Below, piece after piece: positions 5,856 to 23,009 of a DNA stretch of 34,994 nucleotides. The notes below the pieces were generated by a model. The model worked only from the letters and a program-made list of their open reading frames with translations, ran no database searches and had not been told where the DNA came from. The number at the start of each line of letters is the position of its first letter. Positions within the stretch are counted from its first letter, which is position 1. Both the position numbers and the translations under genes were made by a program. The stretch lies in contig NZ_POQU01000037.1 of NCBI RefSeq assembly GCF_002938425.1, positions 1-34,994 on the forward strand. The letters run 5' to 3'. Source of the DNA: Blastococcus atacamensis. Its GTDB lineage: Bacteria > Actinomycetota > Actinomycetes > Mycobacteriales > Geodermatophilaceae.

Positions 5856-6608
5856 CTACTTCCAGCGGGTGCCGATGCTCAGCGCAGCCAGCGCGGCGGC
5901 GCCGGCGGTGGAGGTGCGCAGGACCTCGGGGCCCAGCCGCACCGGGTGGGCCCCGGCGGCACGGAACGCCACGACCTCGCCGTCGGTGAGCCCGCCCTCG
6001 GGGCCGACGACGATCACGACCGTGCCGTCCGACGGGACGGTGAGCTCGGCCAGTGGACGCCGGGCCTGCTCGTGCAGGACGACGGCGAGGTCGGCGTCGG
6101 CGAGCATCCCGGCGACCTCGCGGGTGCTCATCGGCCCGGTCACCTCGGGCAGCCGCGGACGGCGGGACTGCTTGCTCGCCGCCCGGGCAGCCGCGCGCCA
6201 CTTGCCCACGCCCCGGTCCACGCGGTCGTCCCGCCAGCGGGTGACGCAGCGCGAGGCCTGCCAGGGCACGATCCGGTCCACGCCGAGCTCGGTGGCGAGG
6301 TCGACGGCCAGCGGCCCGCGGTCCCCCTTGGGCAGCGCCTGCACGAGGACGAACTCCGGCGCGGGTGCCGGCACCTCGAACCGGTTCCGCACCGCGACCC
6401 GCAGACCCTCCGGCCCCGCCGAGACGACCTCGCCCTCGGCGACCGTCCCCTCGCCGTCGCCGACGTGCACGCGCTCACCGGCCTGCAGCCGCAGGACGTC
6501 GACGGCGTGCCGCCCCTCCTGACCGTCGACCAGCAGCTCGGGCACGTCGGGCAGCTCGTCGAGGAGGAACAGTGGGGCGTTGTCCAGCTCGGGGGCCTCG
6601 GTGCTCAT
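5856..6608 (-). CDS. rsmE: 16S rRNA m3U1498 methyltransferase RsmE
   Basis: SPOUT-class (knotted) methyltransferase that methylates N3 of U1498 in 16S rRNA using S-adenosylmethionine. The N-terminal part (about residues 1-75) is the PUA-like RNA-binding domain, with 'HAVDVLRLQAGERVHVGDG'. The C-terminal knot shows 'VIVVGPEGGLTDGE' and 'RLGPEVLRTSTAGAAALA', the AdoMet-binding motifs. 250 residues, normal length. It begins three bases after the dnaJ stop, completing the hrcA-dnaJ-rsmE operon order typical of actinobacteria. It is the only protein gene called here that ends in TAG, notable because the resident tRNA-Sec reads UAG. The protein already reaches its normal family C-terminus at that codon. 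Confidence 0.95.
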   Translation of the reverse strand: MSTEAPELDNAPLFLLDELPDVPELLVDGQEGRHAVDVLRLQAGERVHVGDGEGTVAEGEVVSAGPEGLRVAVRNRFEVPAPAPEFVLVQALPKGDRGPLAVDLATELGVDRIVPWQASRCVTRWRDDRVDRGVGKWRAAARAASKQSRRPRLPEVTGPMSTREVAGMLADADLAVVLHEQARRPLAELTVPSDGTVVIVVGPEGGLTDGEVVAFRAAGAHPVRLGPEVLRTSTAGAAALAALSIGTRWK

Positions 6609-12760: not shown

Positions 12761-14506
12761 TCAACGCAGGCGGCGGGAGTTGTCGGGCAGCCGCTCGGTC
12801 ACACCGCGCGCGTCGAGCCACTCCATCAGCGGAACGGCCACGCGGCGGCTGGTGCCCCACGCCTGCCGGGCCTGGCTCAGGGTGAAGGGCTGCGCCAGCG
12901 TGCCCAGCCGGGTCCGCGCGACGCCGTCGACGCCCGGCGCCAGGTAGACGCCCTCGCCGATCTTCACCAGCTGACCACCGCGCACGGCCGCGGCCAGCTC
13001 CCGCACGCCGAGCCCGGCGGCGACGAGCTCCGGTGCCTCCGGAGCCGCGAACGGGTCGAGCACGAGCCGCGCCCGGATCGCGTCGACGGCCCGCTGCACC
13101 TGCGGCGGCAGGTCCGCGGCGCCGTCGACGACCCGGCCCTCCCGCAACATGAGCGGCTCGCGCACGAGGGCGGGCACGAGGTCCGCGCCGGGCAGGTCGA
13201 GCGCCCGGCGCACCACCTCGGCGGGGGGACCGGGCTCCAGCGGACGGAGCCGCCGGTACCGGGCGACGACGTCGGGCACGCGGGCGCCGAGCTCGTCGGC
13301 GAGACCGGGCGCCAGCAGCCACGGCCCCAGCTCGGTCGCGCCCGCGGGCGCCGGCCAGCCCATGGCGGCGAAGTCGGCGGCCCGCACGATCCGGCGGCGG
13401 GCGAGGTCCGCGGCGGCCCCGGCGTCGCCGACGGGCTGGGCGGCGAGCTCGGCGCCCCGCTGCCGGGCCGCACCCCGACGGCGCAGCTCCGGCGGGTCGA
13501 CGTCCCGGACGTCGGCGCCCAGGACCCGCCGCGCCCCGGGGTCGCGCAGCAGCAGCCGGTCCCCGACCCGCAGCGGCAGCGGGCGGGTGAGCCGCAGGCG
13601 GACCGCGGCGCCGTCCAGCGGCCGCAGCCGGGCACCGACCGTGGCCGATCCGACGTGCACCACGGGCTCGGCGGGCAGCGGGTCCTCGGGCGGCGCGTCC
13701 AGGGTCACGTCGACGACGTCGGTGAGCCGGAAGGCGCCCGGGGTCAGCAGCGCATCGCCGCGGGACAGGTCCTCGACGGCGACGCCGCGCAGGTTGACCG
13801 CCACCCGGGCGGTGGCGGTCGCGCGCTCGACCGGCTCGCCGAGGGACTGCACGCCCCGCACGCCCACCTCCCGGTCCCCCAGCACGAGGCGGTCCCCCGC
13901 GGCCACGGTGCCCGCCGCCAGCGTGCCGGTCACCACGGTCCCGGCGCCGGTGATGGTGAAGGCGCGGTCGATCCAGAGCCGCACCGGCGCGGCGGCGTCC
14001 GGGGCCGGCAGGCCCGCCAGCAGCCGCTCCAGCGCGGCGGCCAGCTCCGGGACCCCGGCCCCGGTCACCGAGCTCACCGCGACACCGGGGACCTCGCCCA
14101 TCGACGTCGCGGCCAGGCGCTCCCGCACGTCGGCCAGAACCGGCGCGGCGTCGGCGAGATCGGACTTGGTGACGGCGAGCAGGGCGTGCCGCACCCCGAG
14201 GGCGTCCAGGACCGAGACGTGCTCGGCGGTCTGGGCCGACCAGCCGTCGTCGGCCGCGACCACGACCAGCGCGGCGGGCACCGATCCGACGCCGGCCAGC
14301 ATGTTGCCGACGAACCGCTCGTGCCCGGGGACGTCGACGACCGCGAGCCGGCGGCCCGAGGACAGCCTCGTCCAGGCGAAGCCGAGGTCGATGGTGAGCC
14401 CGCGCCGGCGCTCCTCGGCCCAGCGGTCGGGCTCCATCCCGGTGAGCGCGCGGACGAGCGCGGACTTGCCGTGGTCGACGTGGCCGGCAGTCGCGATGAC
14501 GTCCAT
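12761..14506 (-). CDS. selB: Selenocysteine-specific elongation factor SelB
   Basis: GTPase that carries Sec-tRNA to the ribosome and binds the SECIS hairpin in selenoprotein mRNA. G1 GHVDHGKS (residues 8-15), G3 'DVPGHERF' and G4 'TKSDL' are intact. EF-Tu-like domains 2 and 3 follow, then C-terminal winged helices for SECIS binding, ending 'GTSRRVAVPLMEWLDARGV'. 581 residues from ATG 14506. A GTG at 14530 overlaps the selA stop as GTGA and would add eight residues; it is a plausible alternative through coupling. If the tRNA reads UAG, this SelB must work with a UAG-positioned SECIS; the codon itself is read by the tRNA, so no change in the GTPase domain is expected. Confidence 0.96.
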   Translation of the reverse strand: MDVIATAGHVDHGKSALVRALTGMEPDRWAEERRRGLTIDLGFAWTRLSSGRRLAVVDVPGHERFVGNMLAGVGSVPAALVVVAADDGWSAQTAEHVSVLDALGVRHALLAVTKSDLADAAPVLADVRERLAATSMGEVPGVAVSSVTGAGVPELAAALERLLAGLPAPDAAAPVRLWIDRAFTITGAGTVVTGTLAAGTVAAGDRLVLGDREVGVRGVQSLGEPVERATATARVAVNLRGVAVEDLSRGDALLTPGAFRLTDVVDVTLDAPPEDPLPAEPVVHVGSATVGARLRPLDGAAVRLRLTRPLPLRVGDRLLLRDPGARRVLGADVRDVDPPELRRRGAARQRGAELAAQPVGDAGAAADLARRRIVRAADFAAMGWPAPAGATELGPWLLAPGLADELGARVPDVVARYRRLRPLEPGPPAEVVRRALDLPGADLVPALVREPLMLREGRVVDGAADLPPQVQRAVDAIRARLVLDPFAAPEAPELVAAGLGVRELAAAVRGGQLVKIGEGVYLAPGVDGVARTRLGTLAQPFTLSQARQAWGTSRRVAVPLMEWLDARGVTERLPDNSRRLR

Positions 14507-14526
14507 ACCGGACGCACCCGGAGCGG

Positions 14527-15843
14527 TCACGTCCACGCGCGGGCCACCTCCAGCACCGCGTCGGCCAGGGCGTCGTCGGCCGCCGGCGGAACGCTGCGCA
14601 GGTTGAGCAGGGTGCGGCCGGCCTCGACGTAGCCGACGACGGGCCGAGCTCCTCGCCGGAGCGGCTCGGCGAACTCCGGCGGCAGCGAGACGGCGGCGCC
14701 CGGCAGCGGCTGCTCGGGGGCTCCTCCCCCGCCGACGCGCGACTCGGCGTCGATCGCTCCGGCGTCGATCCCGGCGTCGGAGAGCCGGGCGGCCACCGTC
14801 CGGGCGCGGGCGCGCAATCCGTCGACGTCGGCGGCGAGCATCTCCTGCACCGGCGGCAGCGGTCCGCGCAGCGTGGCCTCCAGCGCGGCCAGGGTCGTCT
14901 TGTCCACCCGCAGCGCCCGGTACAGCGGGTGGCGGCGGAGCCGCTGCACCAGCTCCGCGCGACCGAGCACGAGGCCGGCCTGGGGGCCGCCGAGCAGCTT
15001 GTCGCCGCTGGCCAGCACCAGGTCGGCGCCGGCCGCGATCGTCGTCTGCAGGTCCGGCTCGTCGGGCAGCACCGGGTGCGGGCGGAGCAGCCCCGAGCCG
15101 ACGTCGGCGACGAGCGGCACCCCGGTGCCCGACAGCGCCGCGGCCAGCTCGGCGACCTCGACCGCCCGGGTGAAGCCGCGGACGACGAAGTTCGACGGGT
15201 GGACTTTGAGGACCGCGCCGGTGTCCGGGCCCAGCGCGCCACGGTAGTCGGCGAGGGTGGCCCGGTTGGTGGTGCCGACCTCGCGCAGCCGGGCGCCGGT
15301 GCTCTCCAGCAGCTCGGGGATGCGGAAGCCGTCGCCGATCTCCACCAGCTCGCCGCGGGCCAGCACCAGCTCGCGGCCCTGACCCAGGGCGGTGGCGACG
15401 AGAGCCAGCGCGGCGGCGCAATTGTTGACCACGATCGCGGCCTCGGCCGCGGGGACGGCGTCCAGGAGCGCGGCGATCGCCGCCTCGCCGCGGGGTCCCC
15501 GCCGTCCGGTGCGCAGGTCCAGCTCGACGTCGGTGGTGCCGCTCGCCGCGGTGATCGCCTCGGCCGCGGCGTCGGACAGCGGGGCCCGACCGAGGTTCGT
15601 GTGCACGATCACGCCGGTCGCGTTGAGCACCGGCCGCAGGCTCGACGCGGTCGGGGGCAGCTCGGCGAGAACGGCGTCGACGGCCGCTCCGGGCGTCACC
15701 TCGCCGGAGCGCACCCGCTGCTGCACCCGCTGGACGGCGCCCTTCACCAGGGCCCGGCCCAGCCGCTTCCCCGCGCCGGCCAGGCGCGGATCGGCGAGCA
15801 GCGTGTCGGTGCGCGGCACCTGGCGGCGGGGGTCGGCGGTCAT
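14527..15843 (-). CDS. selA: L-seryl-tRNA(Sec) selenium transferase SelA
   Basis: PLP-dependent enzyme that converts Ser-tRNA-Sec to Sec-tRNA-Sec with selenophosphate. 438 residues, normal for bacterial SelA. The PLP-binding lysine is Lys282 in SGDKLLGGPQAG; other signatures are 'NATGVIVHTNLGRAPLS', 'NNCAAA', 'KVHPSNFVVRGFT' and 'DVGSGLL'. The start chosen is ATG 15843; a GTG ten codons earlier is possible. It leads a selA-selB operon in which the genes nearly or actually overlap. The preceding tRNA-Sec gene lies on the same strand 138 bases upstream. Confidence 0.96.
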   Translation of the reverse strand: MTADPRRQVPRTDTLLADPRLAGAGKRLGRALVKGAVQRVQQRVRSGEVTPGAAVDAVLAELPPTASSLRPVLNATGVIVHTNLGRAPLSDAAAEAITAASGTTDVELDLRTGRRGPRGEAAIAALLDAVPAAEAAIVVNNCAAALALVATALGQGRELVLARGELVEIGDGFRIPELLESTGARLREVGTTNRATLADYRGALGPDTGAVLKVHPSNFVVRGFTRAVEVAELAAALSGTGVPLVADVGSGLLRPHPVLPDEPDLQTTIAAGADLVLASGDKLLGGPQAGLVLGRAELVQRLRRHPLYRALRVDKTTLAALEATLRGPLPPVQEMLAADVDGLRARARTVAARLSDAGIDAGAIDAESRVGGGGAPEQPLPGAAVSLPPEFAEPLRRGARPVVGYVEAGRTLLNLRSVPPAADDALADAVLEVARAWT

Positions 15844-15922
15844 CGCACGGGAGCGTAGGCCCCCGCCCGCCACCCCGGAGCGAGCCCACTCACCCGACGT
15901 GGTGGGGCCCGGACGCCGGAGG

Positions 15923-15981: not shown

Positions 15982-16077
15982 TGGCGGAGGCGGACGGGAA
16001 TCGAACCCGCCTGGCCGAGATGCTCGACCACGTCGGCTTTAGAGGCCGCGGGGGCCACCAGACACCCTGACGCCTCC
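15982..16077 (-). tRNA. selC: tRNA-Sec with anticodon CUA (UAG-decoding)
   Basis: 96 bases including encoded CCA. The 5' GGAGGCG pairs with CGCCTCC; one further base on each side (U opposite C, mismatched) gives the 8+5 layout typical of bacterial tRNA-Sec. T-arm loop is TTCGATT; the discriminator is G. The long variable arm is TGGTCGA-GCATC-TCGGCCA (7 bp). The anticodon arm is CGGC-CTCTAAA-GCCG, so the seven-base loop reads C, U33, then C-U-A, then A37, A38: anticodon CUA, complementary to UAG, not the usual UCA for UGA. It lies between selA/selB and selD. UAG-reading tRNA-Sec has been reported for Geodermatophilus and Blastococcus. Confidence 0.93.
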
Positions 16078-16119: not shown

Positions 16120-16734
16120 ATGTCAGAGCCTCCTGCCAGCATCCGTTCCGTGACCCGCACCGAGCACCGCACCCCCGCGCCGCTGCCCCCGGTCGACCTC
16201 ACCCCTGAGGAGGCGGCCGCGATCGTCGCCGCCCTGTCGGGCCGGTCGGGCGGGCCGTTCGCCGAGGCCGGGCAGACGGCGATGGAGAAGGTCCTCACGG
16301 CGCTGGAGCCCGATGCGAGCCGGCGGGCGCGCATGCTGGCCAGCCACCGGTGGCTGGCGTCCGAGGCCGCCCGCGAGGCCGACCTGCGGCGCCGGGTCGA
16401 ACTCGGGCTGGCCGAGCGGCGCGTGCTGGTCCTCGACTACTGCGACCGCCAGCAGCGCTGGTCGGAGCGCACGGTGGAGCCGCAGCTGCTGGCCCGCCAG
16501 GGGGCGCACTGGTTCCTCGTCGCCTGGTGCCGGGAGCGTCAGGAGCTGCGCTGGTTCCGCGAGGACCGGATCAGCGAGGTGCAGGTCCTCGACGAGACCG
16601 CTCCGCGCCGCGAGCTGGACGGCCTCGGTGCTCCCCCGTCGTCCACCCATCCCGCCGGGCGGAAGCTGCCCCGCACGCCGGTCGCCCAGCCGGACGCACG
16701 CCGTCTCCGGTTGCTCCCCGGCGGACTCGTCTGA
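16120..16734 (+). CDS. WYL-domain protein lacking an HTH
   Basis: A 204-residue protein. The region from about residue 85 to 180 is a WYL-like ligand/nucleotide-sensing domain: 'RRRVELGLAERRVLVLDYCD' then 'WSERTVEPQLLARQGAHWFL' then 'RWFREDRISEVQVLDE'. Classical WYL regulators have an N-terminal winged helix; here the N-terminal half is a helical segment rich in Pro, Ala and Glu with no recognisable HTH. The start is ATG 16120, with GGAG nine bases upstream; GTG 16150 is the alternative. It sits between divergent tRNA-Sec and co-directional selD (21-base gap), so it is probably co-transcribed with selD and could sense or regulate something in selenium metabolism. That role is inference. Confidence 0.78.
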   Translation: MSEPPASIRSVTRTEHRTPAPLPPVDLTPEEAAAIVAALSGRSGGPFAEAGQTAMEKVLTALEPDASRRARMLASHRWLASEAAREADLRRRVELGLAERRVLVLDYCDRQQRWSERTVEPQLLARQGAHWFLVAWCRERQELRWFREDRISEVQVLDETAPRRELDGLGAPPSSTHPAGRKLPRTPVAQPDARRLRLLPGGLV

Positions 16735-16755: not shown

Positions 16756-17763
16756 GTGACGACCGCACCCGCCCGCATCCGGCTCACGCAGTTCGCCCAC
16801 GGCGGCGGCTGCGCCTGCAAGATCCCGCCCGGCGAGCTCGAGGCCGTGGTCGCCGGGCTCACCGCCCAGGGGCCGGCCGATCCGGCAGCCGAGCTCGTGG
16901 TCGGCCTGGACGACGGCGACGACGCCGCCGTGGTGCGCATCGCCGGCGGGCAGGGCCTGGTCCTCACCACCGACTTCTTCACCCCGGTCGTCGACGACGC
17001 GTACACGTTCGGCCGGATCGCGGCGGCCAACGCGCTGTCCGACATCTACGCGATGGGCGGCACCCCGGTCGTCGCCGTGAACCTGCTGGGCTGGCCGCGG
17101 GACGTGCTGCCCGCGGAGCTCGCTGGGGAGGTGCTGCGGGGTGGCCTCGAGGTGGCGCACGAGGCCGGCTGCCACGTCGGCGGCGGCCACTCGATCGACG
17201 ACCCCGAGCCCAAGTACGGCATGGCGGTCACCGGGATCGTCGACGTCGACCGGATCATCACCAACTCCGGGGCGGTCGCCGGCACCCCGCTGACGCTGTC
17301 CAAGCCGCTCGGCGTCGGGGTGCTCAACAGCCGGATGAAGGCCACCGGCGAGGTGTCGGAGGAGGCGGTCGCCTCGATGACCGCGCTCAACCGCAACGCC
17401 GGCCGGGCCGCGGTCGCCGCCGGGATCCGCGCGGGAACCGACGTCACCGGGTTCGGCCTGCTCGGCCACCTCTACAAGATGGCGCGGGCCAGCGGGGTGA
17501 CGGCGGTCGTCGACGCCGCCGCCGTCCCCTACCTGACCGGTGCCCGCGAGGCCCTGGCCGATGGCTACGTCTCCGGCGGCACCCGCCGCAACCTCGACTG
17601 GGTGCGCCCGCACACCGACCTCTCGGCGGTCCCCGAGGAGGAGGCGCTGCTGCTGGCCGACGCCCAGACCTCCGGTGGCCTGCTGCTCGGTGGCGAGATC
17701 CCGGGCGCGCCGGTGATCGGGGAGTTCGTGCCGCGCCAGGAGCACGCCGTCGTCGTCCGCTGA
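16756..17763 (+). CDS. selD: Selenide, water dikinase SelD (Cys form)
   Basis: Selenophosphate synthetase: ATP + selenide + water gives selenophosphate, AMP and phosphate. 335 residues. The mobile catalytic loop reads HGGGCACKI with Cys19, Cys21 and Lys22; Cys19 is the position that is selenocysteine in some SelD proteins, so this enzyme is the Cys version and does not itself need UAG decoding. 'DDGDDAAVVRI' and 'LTTDFFTPVVDD' carry the metal-binding aspartates, and 'GGHSIDDPEPKYG' is also conserved. The start is GTG 16756, 21 bases after the WYL gene. It converges on the patatin gene with a 10-base gap. Confidence 0.97.
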   Translation: MTTAPARIRLTQFAHGGGCACKIPPGELEAVVAGLTAQGPADPAAELVVGLDDGDDAAVVRIAGGQGLVLTTDFFTPVVDDAYTFGRIAAANALSDIYAMGGTPVVAVNLLGWPRDVLPAELAGEVLRGGLEVAHEAGCHVGGGHSIDDPEPKYGMAVTGIVDVDRIITNSGAVAGTPLTLSKPLGVGVLNSRMKATGEVSEEAVASMTALNRNAGRAAVAAGIRAGTDVTGFGLLGHLYKMARASGVTAVVDAAAVPYLTGAREALADGYVSGGTRRNLDWVRPHTDLSAVPEEEALLLADAQTSGGLLLGGEIPGAPVIGEFVPRQEHAVVVR

Positions 17764-20061: not shown

Positions 20062-20376
20062 TCAGTGCAGGACCTTGAGCCCGACGACGCAGCCCACGAT
20101 GCCGGCCAGGAGCAGCAGTTTCACCACCGACACCGCCTCGGCCCCGGTGACCATCGCGTAGACGACGGTGAGCACCGCGCCGATGCCCACCCACACGGCG
20201 TAGGCGGTGCCGAGCGGCAGCTCCCGCATGGCGTAGGCAAGGCCGCCCATGCTCCCGGCCAGCGCGACGGCGAACAGCACCGTGGGCCACAGCCGGCTGA
20301 AGCCCTCCGAGCGGTCCAGGGCCGCAGCCCACACCGCCTCGAGCATCCCCGAGACCACCAGCACCAACCACGACAT
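20062..20376 (-). CDS. gdx: Guanidinium exporter Gdx (SMR family)
   Basis: Small multidrug resistance family transporter of 104 residues with four transmembrane helices. The proton/substrate-coupling glutamate is Glu13 in 'MSWLVLVVSGMLEAVWA', with the following Trp, as in Gdx/SugE exporters. The segment 'LPLGTAYAVWVGIGAVLTVV' is the family signature. Gdx proteins exchange guanidinium for protons across the inner membrane. The start is ATG 20376, with GAGGAG six to eight bases upstream. The guanidine-III riboswitch whose 3' strand runs up to that ribosome site makes the guanidinium assignment strong. Confidence 0.93.
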   Translation of the reverse strand: MSWLVLVVSGMLEAVWAAALDRSEGFSRLWPTVLFAVALAGSMGGLAYAMRELPLGTAYAVWVGIGAVLTVVYAMVTGAEAVSVVKLLLLAGIVGCVVGLKVLH

Positions 20377-20389
20377 CGCGGGCTCCTCT

Positions 20390-20432
20390 GGCGCCGTCTT
20401 GTCGCACACCGGGTACGGCACCGCTCGTCCGG
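20390..20432 (-). promoter_or_regulatory. Guanidine-III riboswitch
   Basis: On the minus strand the 43 bases carry the guanidine-III (ykkC-III) signature: CCGGACGAG at the 5' end, GCCGTACCCGG in the middle, and GACAAGACGGCGCC at the 3' end. The CCGG/CCGG stem and the GCCGT/ACGGC pseudoknot pairing can both form, as in the Thermobifida fusca aptamer. The 3' strand ends five bases before the gdx Shine-Dalgarno, which indicates translational control with guanidine as inducer. Confidence 0.92.
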
Positions 20433-20475
20433 GAGCCGTGGTCGCGGCTCGGCCCGACCATAGCCCGACCCACGA

Positions 20476-20522
20476 GTGTCAATAAAGGTTGACACCCCTC
20501 GCGAGGGCAACCTAGGTTGACA
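20476..20522 (+). promoter_or_regulatory. Paired operator sites upstream of the HTH/Clp-N genes
   Basis: Site 1 is GTGTCAA-taaagg-TTGACAC (20476-20495), a perfect 7-bp inverted repeat. Site 2 is CAACCTAGGTTG (20508-20519), continuing to TTGACA at 20522. Both share AGGTTGACA, suggesting a palindromic consensus TGTCAACCTAGGTTGACA with the two centres about 28 bp apart. Site 2 ends three bases before the ATG at 20526. The HTH protein encoded immediately downstream is the obvious candidate binder. Confidence 0.6.
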
Positions 20523-21298: not shown

Positions 21299-23009
21299 GC
21301 AGTGCCAGCGCCGCGACCGCTGCCAGCGACGCCGCTCCGGCCGCCCCGGCGAAGACGGTGTGCAGCTGGGTGAGCAGCGCGGCCTCGGTCGCGGCGTCGT
21401 AGGCGGCGCAGTCGGCCGGCGTCGAGGGGCACAGCTGCATCGGCGTCCCGATGGCCGCCACCTCGGCGGTGAACCGGCGGAGCGCGACGGCGGTGAGCAG
21501 GGAGAGCCCCACCAGCATCCCCACGGTCCGCGCGACGACGGCCAGCGCTCCGGCGCTGCCGTGCACCTCCGACCGGGTGACGGCGAGCAGGACGGCGTTC
21601 ACCGGGGCGATCGCCAGGCCGAAGCCGAGGCCCGCCGCCAGCAGGACCAACCAGGAGCCCGCGCCGTCCAGCGCCGCCTGGTCCCAGCGGGTCATGGCGC
21701 CGAACGCGGCGGCGGCCAGCGCCATGCCGCCCGCGGCCACCAGCCGCGGGGCGGCGATCCGGCACAGCCATCCACCGGCCACCGCGCCCACCGGGACGGC
21801 GACCAGCAGCCGCACCAGGACCAGCGCCGCGCCCAGCTGGTCGCCCGGGGTCGTGGTCGCGCGGGCGAAGAGCGGGATGTCGACCAGCGCGGCCACCAGC
21901 GCCACGCCGACGAGCAGGTTGACGACCAGCGCACCCCAGGCACCCCGCGGCCGCAGCGCGTCCAGCGGCAGCACGGGGTCGGCCGCCCGCCGCTCGTGCA
22001 GCACGAACAGCACCCCCGCGATGCCGGACAGCGGCAGCAGCACCCAGCCGTGCGCCACGACCTGCGTCTCGGGATCGGCCGCGGCGAACGCCCACACCAG
22101 CGCGCCCAGCGCGACGACGGCGAGGAGCGACCCCACGACGTCGACCCCGCGGGCCAGCGCTCCGAGACCGCGGAGCGGGAGCACCGCCCCGTCCGGGTGC
22201 AGCAGGCTCCTCGCGACCAGCGCGGCACCCGCGACCAGCGCTGCGAGCACCAGCGGCGTCGTCTCCGGCACCGCCTCGACGAGAGGGACGTAGAGCAACC
22301 CCAGGGTGACGTCCTCGGCCAGGGCCGCGGGCTCGGCCAGCTGCAGCCCGAGCGCGGCGACCGACAGGGCCGCCAGGGCCGCGGCGACGACGTCGGGACG
22401 CCGCACCCGCCCGGCCACGGCGACCCCGACGGCCAGCCCGAGGCCCAGCAGCAGGTTGAGCCAGAAGATCGCCCGCCAGTCCGCGACGGCGAGGACCGCG
22501 GCGCCGGCGAGCGGACCGAGGACGGCGCCGGCCTCCTGGACGGCGCCGACGACGCCGAGCGGCACCGAACGCCGCTCGGGCGGCCATCGATCGGCCACCA
22601 GCGCGAGGGTGGCCGGAACGAGCCCGCCGGCGCCGATGCCCTGCAGTCCACGGCCGGCGACGGCGGGGCCGAGGGAGTCCGCCGTCGCGGTGAGCAGCGA
22701 GCCGAGGGCGAACAGCAGCAGGCACCCGATGAGCACCGGGGTGCGGCCGCGCAGGTCGGCGAGGCGGCCCAGCAGCGGCAGCGTGGCGGTGTAACCGAGC
22801 AGGAAGCCGCCGACGATCGGTGTCGCCCGCTGCAGGTCGTCCAGGCCGACGCCGACCCCGGTCAGGATGTCGGGCAGCGCCAGGACGACGACGTAGGTGT
22901 CGGCGGCGGTGACCAGGACCGCGAGCGTGGCGAGGGCGACCGCCGTCAGTCCCGGGACGCGGGCGGCGGCCGGGGCCTCAGCCGGGAGCGGGAGCGGTGA
23001 TCTCGACAT
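21258..23009 (-). CDS. MFS transporter, P55-like (DHA2 type)
   Basis: Major facilitator protein of 583 residues, consistent with the 14-helix DHA2 class. Motif A is GRLADLRGRTPVL (residues 81-93), and TM1 carries 'AADTYVVVLALPDIL'. It starts inside the 3' end of the lipoprotein gene (32-base overlap, ATG 23009). The LprG-like lipoprotein plus MFS order is that of the mycobacterial lprG-Rv1410c (P55) operon, which moves triacylglycerides and lipoglycans toward the outer envelope. By synteny the same role is likely here, though antibiotic efflux is the usual annotation. The 3' end overlaps the Clp-N gene on the other strand. Confidence 0.88.
   Translation of the reverse strand: MSRSPLPLPAEAPAAARVPGLTAVALATLAVLVTAADTYVVVLALPDILTGVGVGLDDLQRATPIVGGFLLGYTATLPLLGRLADLRGRTPVLIGCLLLFALGSLLTATADSLGPAVAGRGLQGIGAGGLVPATLALVADRWPPERRSVPLGVVGAVQEAGAVLGPLAGAAVLAVADWRAIFWLNLLLGLGLAVGVAVAGRVRRPDVVAAALAALSVAALGLQLAEPAALAEDVTLGLLYVPLVEAVPETTPLVLAALVAGAALVARSLLHPDGAVLPLRGLGALARGVDVVGSLLAVVALGALVWAFAAADPETQVVAHGWVLLPLSGIAGVLFVLHERRAADPVLPLDALRPRGAWGALVVNLLVGVALVAALVDIPLFARATTTPGDQLGAALVLVRLLVAVPVGAVAGGWLCRIAAPRLVAAGGMALAAAAFGAMTRWDQAALDGAGSWLVLLAAGLGFGLAIAPVNAVLLAVTRSEVHGSAGALAVVARTVGMLVGLSLLTAVALRRFTAEVAAIGTPMQLCPSTPADCAAYDAATEAALLTQLHTVFAGAAGAASLAAVAALALLRSSGPARGPAGG

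Follow-up and report, generated by a model that had tools for sequence, protein, structure and literature searches.

The stretch of DNA analysed here, referred to below as the window, comprises 34,994 nucleotides of contig NZ_POQU01000037.1 of Blastococcus atacamensis, a member of the Geodermatophilaceae. It carries a tRNA gene of 96 nucleotides on the minus strand (15982–16077), with the anticodon C-U-A read directly at positions 16040–16042 (minus strand), which is surrounded by genes for the synthesis and insertion of selenocysteine (Sec). Downstream of the tRNA on the same strand lie selA (14527–15873), which specifies L-seryl-tRNA(Sec) selenium transferase [PF03841; TIGR00474, 425 bits with a cut-off of 267.9], and selB (12761–14530), which specifies the Sec-specific elongation factor [PF00009, SelB-wing_3 and Beta-barrel_SelB] and could start either with GTG at 14530 or with ATG at 14506. 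A WYL-domain gene (16123–16734, plus strand) [PF13280] and selD (16756–17763, plus strand), the gene for selenide, water dikinase [TIGR00476, 388 bits, cut-off 125], are oriented divergently; the WYL-domain gene lies between the tRNA gene and selD, and any part of its protein in the Sec system would be hypothetical. A preliminary description, made from the sequence itself, had placed the tRNA among selA, selB and selD, and the Pfam and NCBIfam matches bear out all three assignments. The SelA protein is 91% identical to those of Blastococcus sp. TF02A-35 and Blastococcus sp. LR1, and clusters with them in a SelA tree, on which grounds we assign the window to Blastococcus. At the left end of the window a gene on the plus strand (33–917) encodes a putative selenate ABC transporter substrate-binding protein [TIGR04553, 285 bits, cut-off 250] which may contribute to selenium supply.

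Two further RNA calls were made in the window. A Guanidine-III riboswitch (20388–20453, minus strand; 63.3 bits) directly precedes a SugE-like SMR transporter gene (20062–20478, minus strand; 98 bits, under the model cut-off of 126), which is an ordinary pairing. The tRNA-Thr reported by ARAGORN at 21683–21778 (minus strand) falls within the ORF of an MFS transporter, reaches the gathering score of no Rfam family, and is probably a false call.

ARAGORN gives the anticodon of the gene at 15982–16077 as cta and labels it tRNA-Pyl; the Rfam model for tRNA-Sec [RF01852] matches it over model positions 1–91 of 91 with 65.8 bits, the gathering score being 47. The loop CTCTAAA on a CGGC/GCCG stem is present as first described, and since this stem flanks the loop, bases 34–36 are CUA. 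The covariance model and ARAGORN agree on the anticodon, and the shifted loop that would have moved it is absent. G73 and an encoded CCA are likewise present as claimed and, with the long variable arm, agree with what is expected of a bacterial tRNA-Sec; the anticodon is CUA in place of the usual UCA, an exception known from the Geodermatophilaceae according to passages of PMC5330540. The 8+5 layout that had been ascribed to this tRNA holds in name only because the eighth acceptor pair is U.C, which leaves seven acceptor pairs and five to six pairs in the T-stem; the Rfam alignment likewise marks non-pairs at this position. The same U.C letters occur in other actinobacterial tRNA-Secs with UCA, for example that of locus L056, and 12-pair tRNA-Secs are described in passages of PMC5330540. 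The variable arm, put at 7 bp in the preliminary description, can form eight pairs, one of them G.U. Folded by energy on its own, the window tRNA adopts a structure other than a cloverleaf (-51.3 kcal/mol, against -43.0 kcal/mol for a cloverleaf written by hand); its UCA relatives from loci L175 and L056 give cloverleaves by energy folding alone. We trust the covariance model and conservation above energy folding for this structure. A sequencing error in the anticodon is very unlikely because the identical anticodon is found in 32 of 32 separately deposited Geodermatophilaceae loci.

The genome assembly (3.89 Mb in 163 contigs, completeness 99.99) was searched for additional tRNA-Secs. RF01852 reported eight places, two of them above the cut-off; the seven places other than the window's gene are, by ARAGORN, tRNAs for Ser (three), Tyr, Leu and Met (two), and were rejected as second copies. 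A degenerate pattern which allows UCA, CUA, UUA and CCA matched the window's CUA gene only. A UCA tRNA-Sec elsewhere in the genome had been named beforehand as the finding that would speak against UAG as the Sec codon; none was found by RF01852, ARAGORN or the pattern. The genome, then, has a CUA tRNA-Sec and no detected UCA copy, as would be expected of a UAG-Sec system.

Selenoprotein genes of the FdhA, AhpC-like, AhpD-like and solute-binding-protein families were sought in the same genome; genes of further families, such as UGSC, might still use UGA for Sec. The gene for the formate dehydrogenase alpha subunit, fdhA [NCBIfam formate_DH_Act, 1927 bits], is followed by genes for a 4Fe-4S subunit and an NrfD-type subunit. 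It has a single in-frame TAG, within ENQARI*HSATVPGLGASFGRGGATN, past which the reading frame runs for about 900 codons with no other stop. The second gene is AhpC-like [PF00578], with TAG in GDW*PYC, a UxxC motif. The proposed check for formate dehydrogenase or other selenoprotein genes with an in-frame TAG thus gave two: fdhA, in which TAG falls on the Sec codon, and the AhpC-like gene, in which it is part of a UxxC motif. Queries for the AhpD-like and solute-binding proteins found no match in this genome, nor did PF20696 [UbiD_C], and another of its molybdoenzymes (C122) has TGC at the Sec position.

The aligned Sec codon of fdhA is TAG in 30/30 Geodermatophilaceae loci (L108–L137, including the organism's own gene) and TGA in all 25 of those outside loci, 48 in number, that cover the site. 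Among 20 further fdhA regions from the family 17 have TAG, one stops short of the site and the remaining two, which come from G079, have a gap there, so that TAG was found in 47 of the 47 Geodermatophilaceae genes in which the Sec codon could be read. The loss of the stretch around the Sec codon from both G079 copies (L148 and L149) is possibly a fault in the assembly of near-identical copies. FdhA was matched in 100/112 Geodermatophilaceae genomes; beyond the regions that were opened the matches are known from the stop counts per match alone. Some of these counts include extra TGA, TAA or TAG, which were considered as possible UGA-Sec codons and rejected: in the matches that were opened they lie at or before residue 38, in one case at 1128/1135, or outside the alignment. 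The AhpC-like gene is present in 30 of the 112 genomes, every time with TAG at the codon in question (30/30). Two copies from different genera, L241 (G104) and L242 (G028), retain TAG but shift frame a few codons beyond it, at roughly matching positions. Codon and anticodon therefore change in step, TAG going with CUA in the Geodermatophilaceae and TGA occurring outside the family, where CUA was found in none of 48 SelA loci.

A hairpin of seven pairs can be drawn 3' of the Sec codon of fdhA in the UAG group and the UGA group alike; its arms are joined by GGUCU in the rows shown and by AGUCU in L083, L095 and L097. Over 37 distinct rows of seven pairs, 248 of 259 cells are paired, whereas 500 shuffles averaged 226 and never exceeded 236. 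Both sides vary in two of the pairs, and three pairs are invariant; the outermost is C.C in 11 of the 23 distinct outside rows, and in some rows the 54-base piece has a lowest-energy fold other than the seven-pair hairpin. The corresponding hairpin of the AhpC-like gene is paired in 154/154 cells of 22 distinct rows which show hardly any variation, the frameshifted L241 and L242 having been left out. When 2000 synonymous shuffles were made neither hairpin was exceptional, with z-scores of -1.51 for fdhA and -1.25 for the AhpC-like gene, and with 172 and 250 shuffles, respectively, that were equally low.

TAG still serves as a stop in this organism. The RsmE-like gene of the window (5856–6608, minus strand) ends in TAG directly after the end of its domain (residue 243 of 250), and recoding is therefore context-dependent and not global. 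This agrees with the earlier contention that the change in codon meaning is confined to selenoproteins. Bacterial Sec systems proceed from SerRS through SelA and SelD to SelB. By analogy SerRS would load serine onto tRNA-Sec(CUA), SelA would turn the bound serine into Sec using the selenophosphate that SelD makes, and SelB would bring the Sec-tRNA(CUA) to the ribosome at an in-frame UAG with a bSECIS hairpin downstream; release factor 1 presumably competes for that UAG. The assertion that this tRNA-Sec reads UAG is supported by the CUA anticodon, the sel genes, the failure to find a UCA tRNA-Sec, and TAG at Sec sites. We consider it highly probable, on these genomic grounds, that the bacterium possesses a Sec insertion system whose codon would be UAG in place of UGA.

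The anticodon was followed through the family and beyond it. All 32 Geodermatophilaceae SelA loci (L024–L055, from Blastococcus, Geodermatophilus, Modestobacter, Klenkia, Trujillonella, Goekera and others) have CUA. One of them, L027 [SPQJ01000003.1], bears the unverified label Bacillus sp. AZ43; its SelA clusters with those of Blastococcus and it is probably misnamed. ARAGORN gave UCA in 36, no tRNA-Sec in 12 and CUA in none of 48 other actinobacterial SelA loci; judging by its sequence, the UCA call in L071 is probably false. The degenerate pattern, applied to 112 Geodermatophilaceae genomes, found CUA in 101, UCA only in seven and no match in four, and neither UUA nor CCA, the intermediate anticodons that it also permits, was seen. 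The exact CUA pattern matched two of 394 genomes of the class, both from the window's genus, and 0/392 outside it, in a sample which holds no other member of the Geodermatophilaceae and in which many genomes may have no tRNA-Sec. The genomes with UCA only (G066, G068, G069, G070, G072, G073 and G074; loci L170–L176) all belong to three genera, g5, g6 and g7, which have nine genomes in the set, each in 190 or more contigs and probably metagenome-assembled. No FdhA match was obtained in these three genera at 1e-100. As read from these tRNA genes, the CUA state is common to the crown genera of the Geodermatophilaceae, and three other genera carry UCA.

How the crown genera came by CUA is a separate matter. 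They might have acquired a ready-made CUA sel locus horizontally, their own UCA tRNA never having changed, an origin which we consider unlikely but would keep in mind; it concerns the source of the system only. In a quick SelA tree with a weak backbone, 35 CUA rows form one group (support 100) and four rows of g6 and g7 stand separately (96) with no supported sister relation between the two, as such a transfer would allow, and sel-fdh clusters do occur on plasmids of other actinobacteria. A donor with CUA was nevertheless encountered in none of the 48 SelA loci from outside the family and, using the exact pattern, in none of the 392 class genomes. Furthermore, the UCA tRNA of L175, from within the family, differs from the crown tRNAs of L026 and L032 at only 6 of 96 positions, four of which are in the anticodon arm: the differences consist of two anticodon changes, a compensated pair adjoining the loop, and two others. 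The window tRNA itself has nine differences from its nearest UCA counterpart in the family (L170). Since a Pseudonocardia tRNA (L100) is equally six differences away from some crown tRNAs, as near as the nearest UCA tRNA of the family is to others, which would also suit a horizontal origin, tRNA distance alone cannot fix ancestry.

Two of the plasmids, pYA7-1a of Arthrobacter sp. (L181) and plasmid 17 of Tsukamurella tyrosinosolvens (L182), carry selB-selA-selD together with formate dehydrogenase genes. Both match the tRNA-Sec query, and one of them is typed as conjugative.

It is very improbable that the system is a relic, with a non-functional tRNA and TAG codons that are true stops in decaying genes. 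Such decay could account for the frameshift past TAG in two AhpC-like copies and for a tRNA that does not fold into a cloverleaf by energy alone, but not for an FdhA frame which stays open for some 900 codons past TAG in a protein matched in 100/112 genomes of the family, nor for TAG at the same fdhA codon in 47/47 genes, as decay would not preserve a single codon. That the tRNA is a pyrrolysine tRNA and UAG encodes pyrrolysine, as its CUA anticodon, shared with the UAG-reading tRNA of pyrrolysine systems, and its ARAGORN label would have it, can be practically dismissed, for Rfam assigns tRNA-Sec above the cut-off and reports no other family at the site, the variable arm is long and not of the three nucleotides given for tRNA-Pyl in passages of PMC7609411, the neighbours are selA, selB and selD with no pyl genes among the window proteins scanned, and TAG occupies the Sec codon position that is TGA in outside fdhA genes; architecture, neighbours and target sites are all of the Sec type.

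Other genes carry TAG in some relatives and TGA in others. A solute-binding-protein gene [SBP_bac_5], which scores under every NCBIfam cut-off, lies between tRNA-Sec and selA in L030, L036 and L172 and contains the motif GEGHW-stop-VIDEPGPWGTGPF. The stop is TAG in L030 (8215–9945, plus strand) and TGA in L172 (1914–3671, minus strand), a locus of genome G073 from one of the UCA genera. Seven Geodermatophilaceae genomes were matched by this gene: five have TAG, G073 has TGA, and one falls short of the site. In a set made up of the window, 80 SelA loci and 15 others (L168–L182), TAG was found in L030, L036 and L180, and TGA in L172 and in Pseudonocardia acidicola (L102). Two Geodermatophilus genomes have AhpD-like genes of the CMD family with CFY-TAG, each placed between the tRNA-Sec gene and selA (L036, 8105–8701, plus strand; L037, 9334–9939, plus strand). 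Both the SBP_bac_5 and the AhpD-like genes may encode selenoproteins.

Geodermatophilus sp. LHW52908 (G058) has two different tRNA-Secs. In addition to a chromosomal gene with CUA there is a second, with UCA, on a 69-kb contig (C17; L168, 1169–1263, minus strand; 81.8 bits). At a distance of 315 bases lies an AhpD-like ORF of the CMD family (L168, 1579–2157, plus strand; peroxidase-related TIGR01926 above the cut-off) with an in-frame TGA at CFY-TGA. A hairpin of seven pairs lies 13 bases from the codon start (z -1.47, with 225 of 2000 synonymous shuffles equally low). The AhpD-like query matched 73/112 genomes, among which this ORF is the only match with an internal stop, although the genes with TAG in L036 and L037 could not be recognised among the matches; on plasmids all matches were under 60% identity among 333 records. 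Several transposase-like genes and a G+C content below that of the remainder mark the IS-rich end of the contig, its first 14.5 kb; no selA, selB or selD was found on the contig. This UCA island may be a misassembly at the contig end. Contamination is unlikely because a search with a piece at 37–39 kb, which matched 10 of 57 genomes, gave an 85% match to G041, another genome of this genus.

The canonical Sec system of bacteria, exemplified by selA, selB, selC and selD of E. coli, decodes UGA. This system and the actinobacterial sel-fdh cluster, as on pYA7-1a, have the same gene set and FdhA site as the window, which differs from them in having CUA/UAG instead of UCA/UGA. UAG-encoded selenocysteine in Geodermatophilus and Blastococcus was reportedly the subject of Mukai et al. 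2016. The statement in the preliminary description that such a tRNA-Sec had been reported for these genera is correct in so far as passages of PMC5330540, citing Mukai 2016, describe UAG-encoded Sec in the Geodermatophilaceae, and an AhpC with Sec-TAG has been reported for Blastococcus saxobsidens, a species named in the legend to the S4 figure of that paper. Since this has been published, the core system is already known in the Geodermatophilaceae and in Blastococcus. The window and the system presented in those passages have in common the CUA tRNA-Sec, FdhA and AhpC with Sec-TAG, and the family; we see no substantive difference between them, and what is added here lies in the relatives. UAG and sense-codon Sec are also mentioned in a portion of PMC10778597. 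Genomes with two or more tRNA-Secs are reported in PMC5330540, none of them with CUA plus UCA in the passages concerned. In our searches of the open literature we did not find the family-wide map of codon and anticodon, the codon swap in the solute-binding-protein gene, or a genome with both CUA and UCA tRNA-Secs.

Taken with the UAG-reading system of the window, these relatives lead us to a tentative proposal, which we would rate a little short of an even chance. Within one family the Sec codon would have been replaced by coordinated UGA to UAG changes in several genes and in the anticodon, both states being still alive in relatives. Geodermatophilus sp. LHW52908 would since have gained from elsewhere a tRNA-Sec that reads UGA, along with an AhpD-like selenoprotein encoded with UGA; a single set of SelA and SelB would then serve two tRNA-Secs, and UAG and UGA would both mean Sec in one cell. 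A natural change of codon meaning confined in this manner is an example of how the genetic code may be altered, and the relatives make the steps testable, with UCA in three genera and one gene that has TGA in a UCA genus but TAG in crown genera. A genome with both tRNA-Secs would reveal whether one cell can make use of two Sec codons, which bears upon the evolution of the code and upon engineered UAG selenoproteins.
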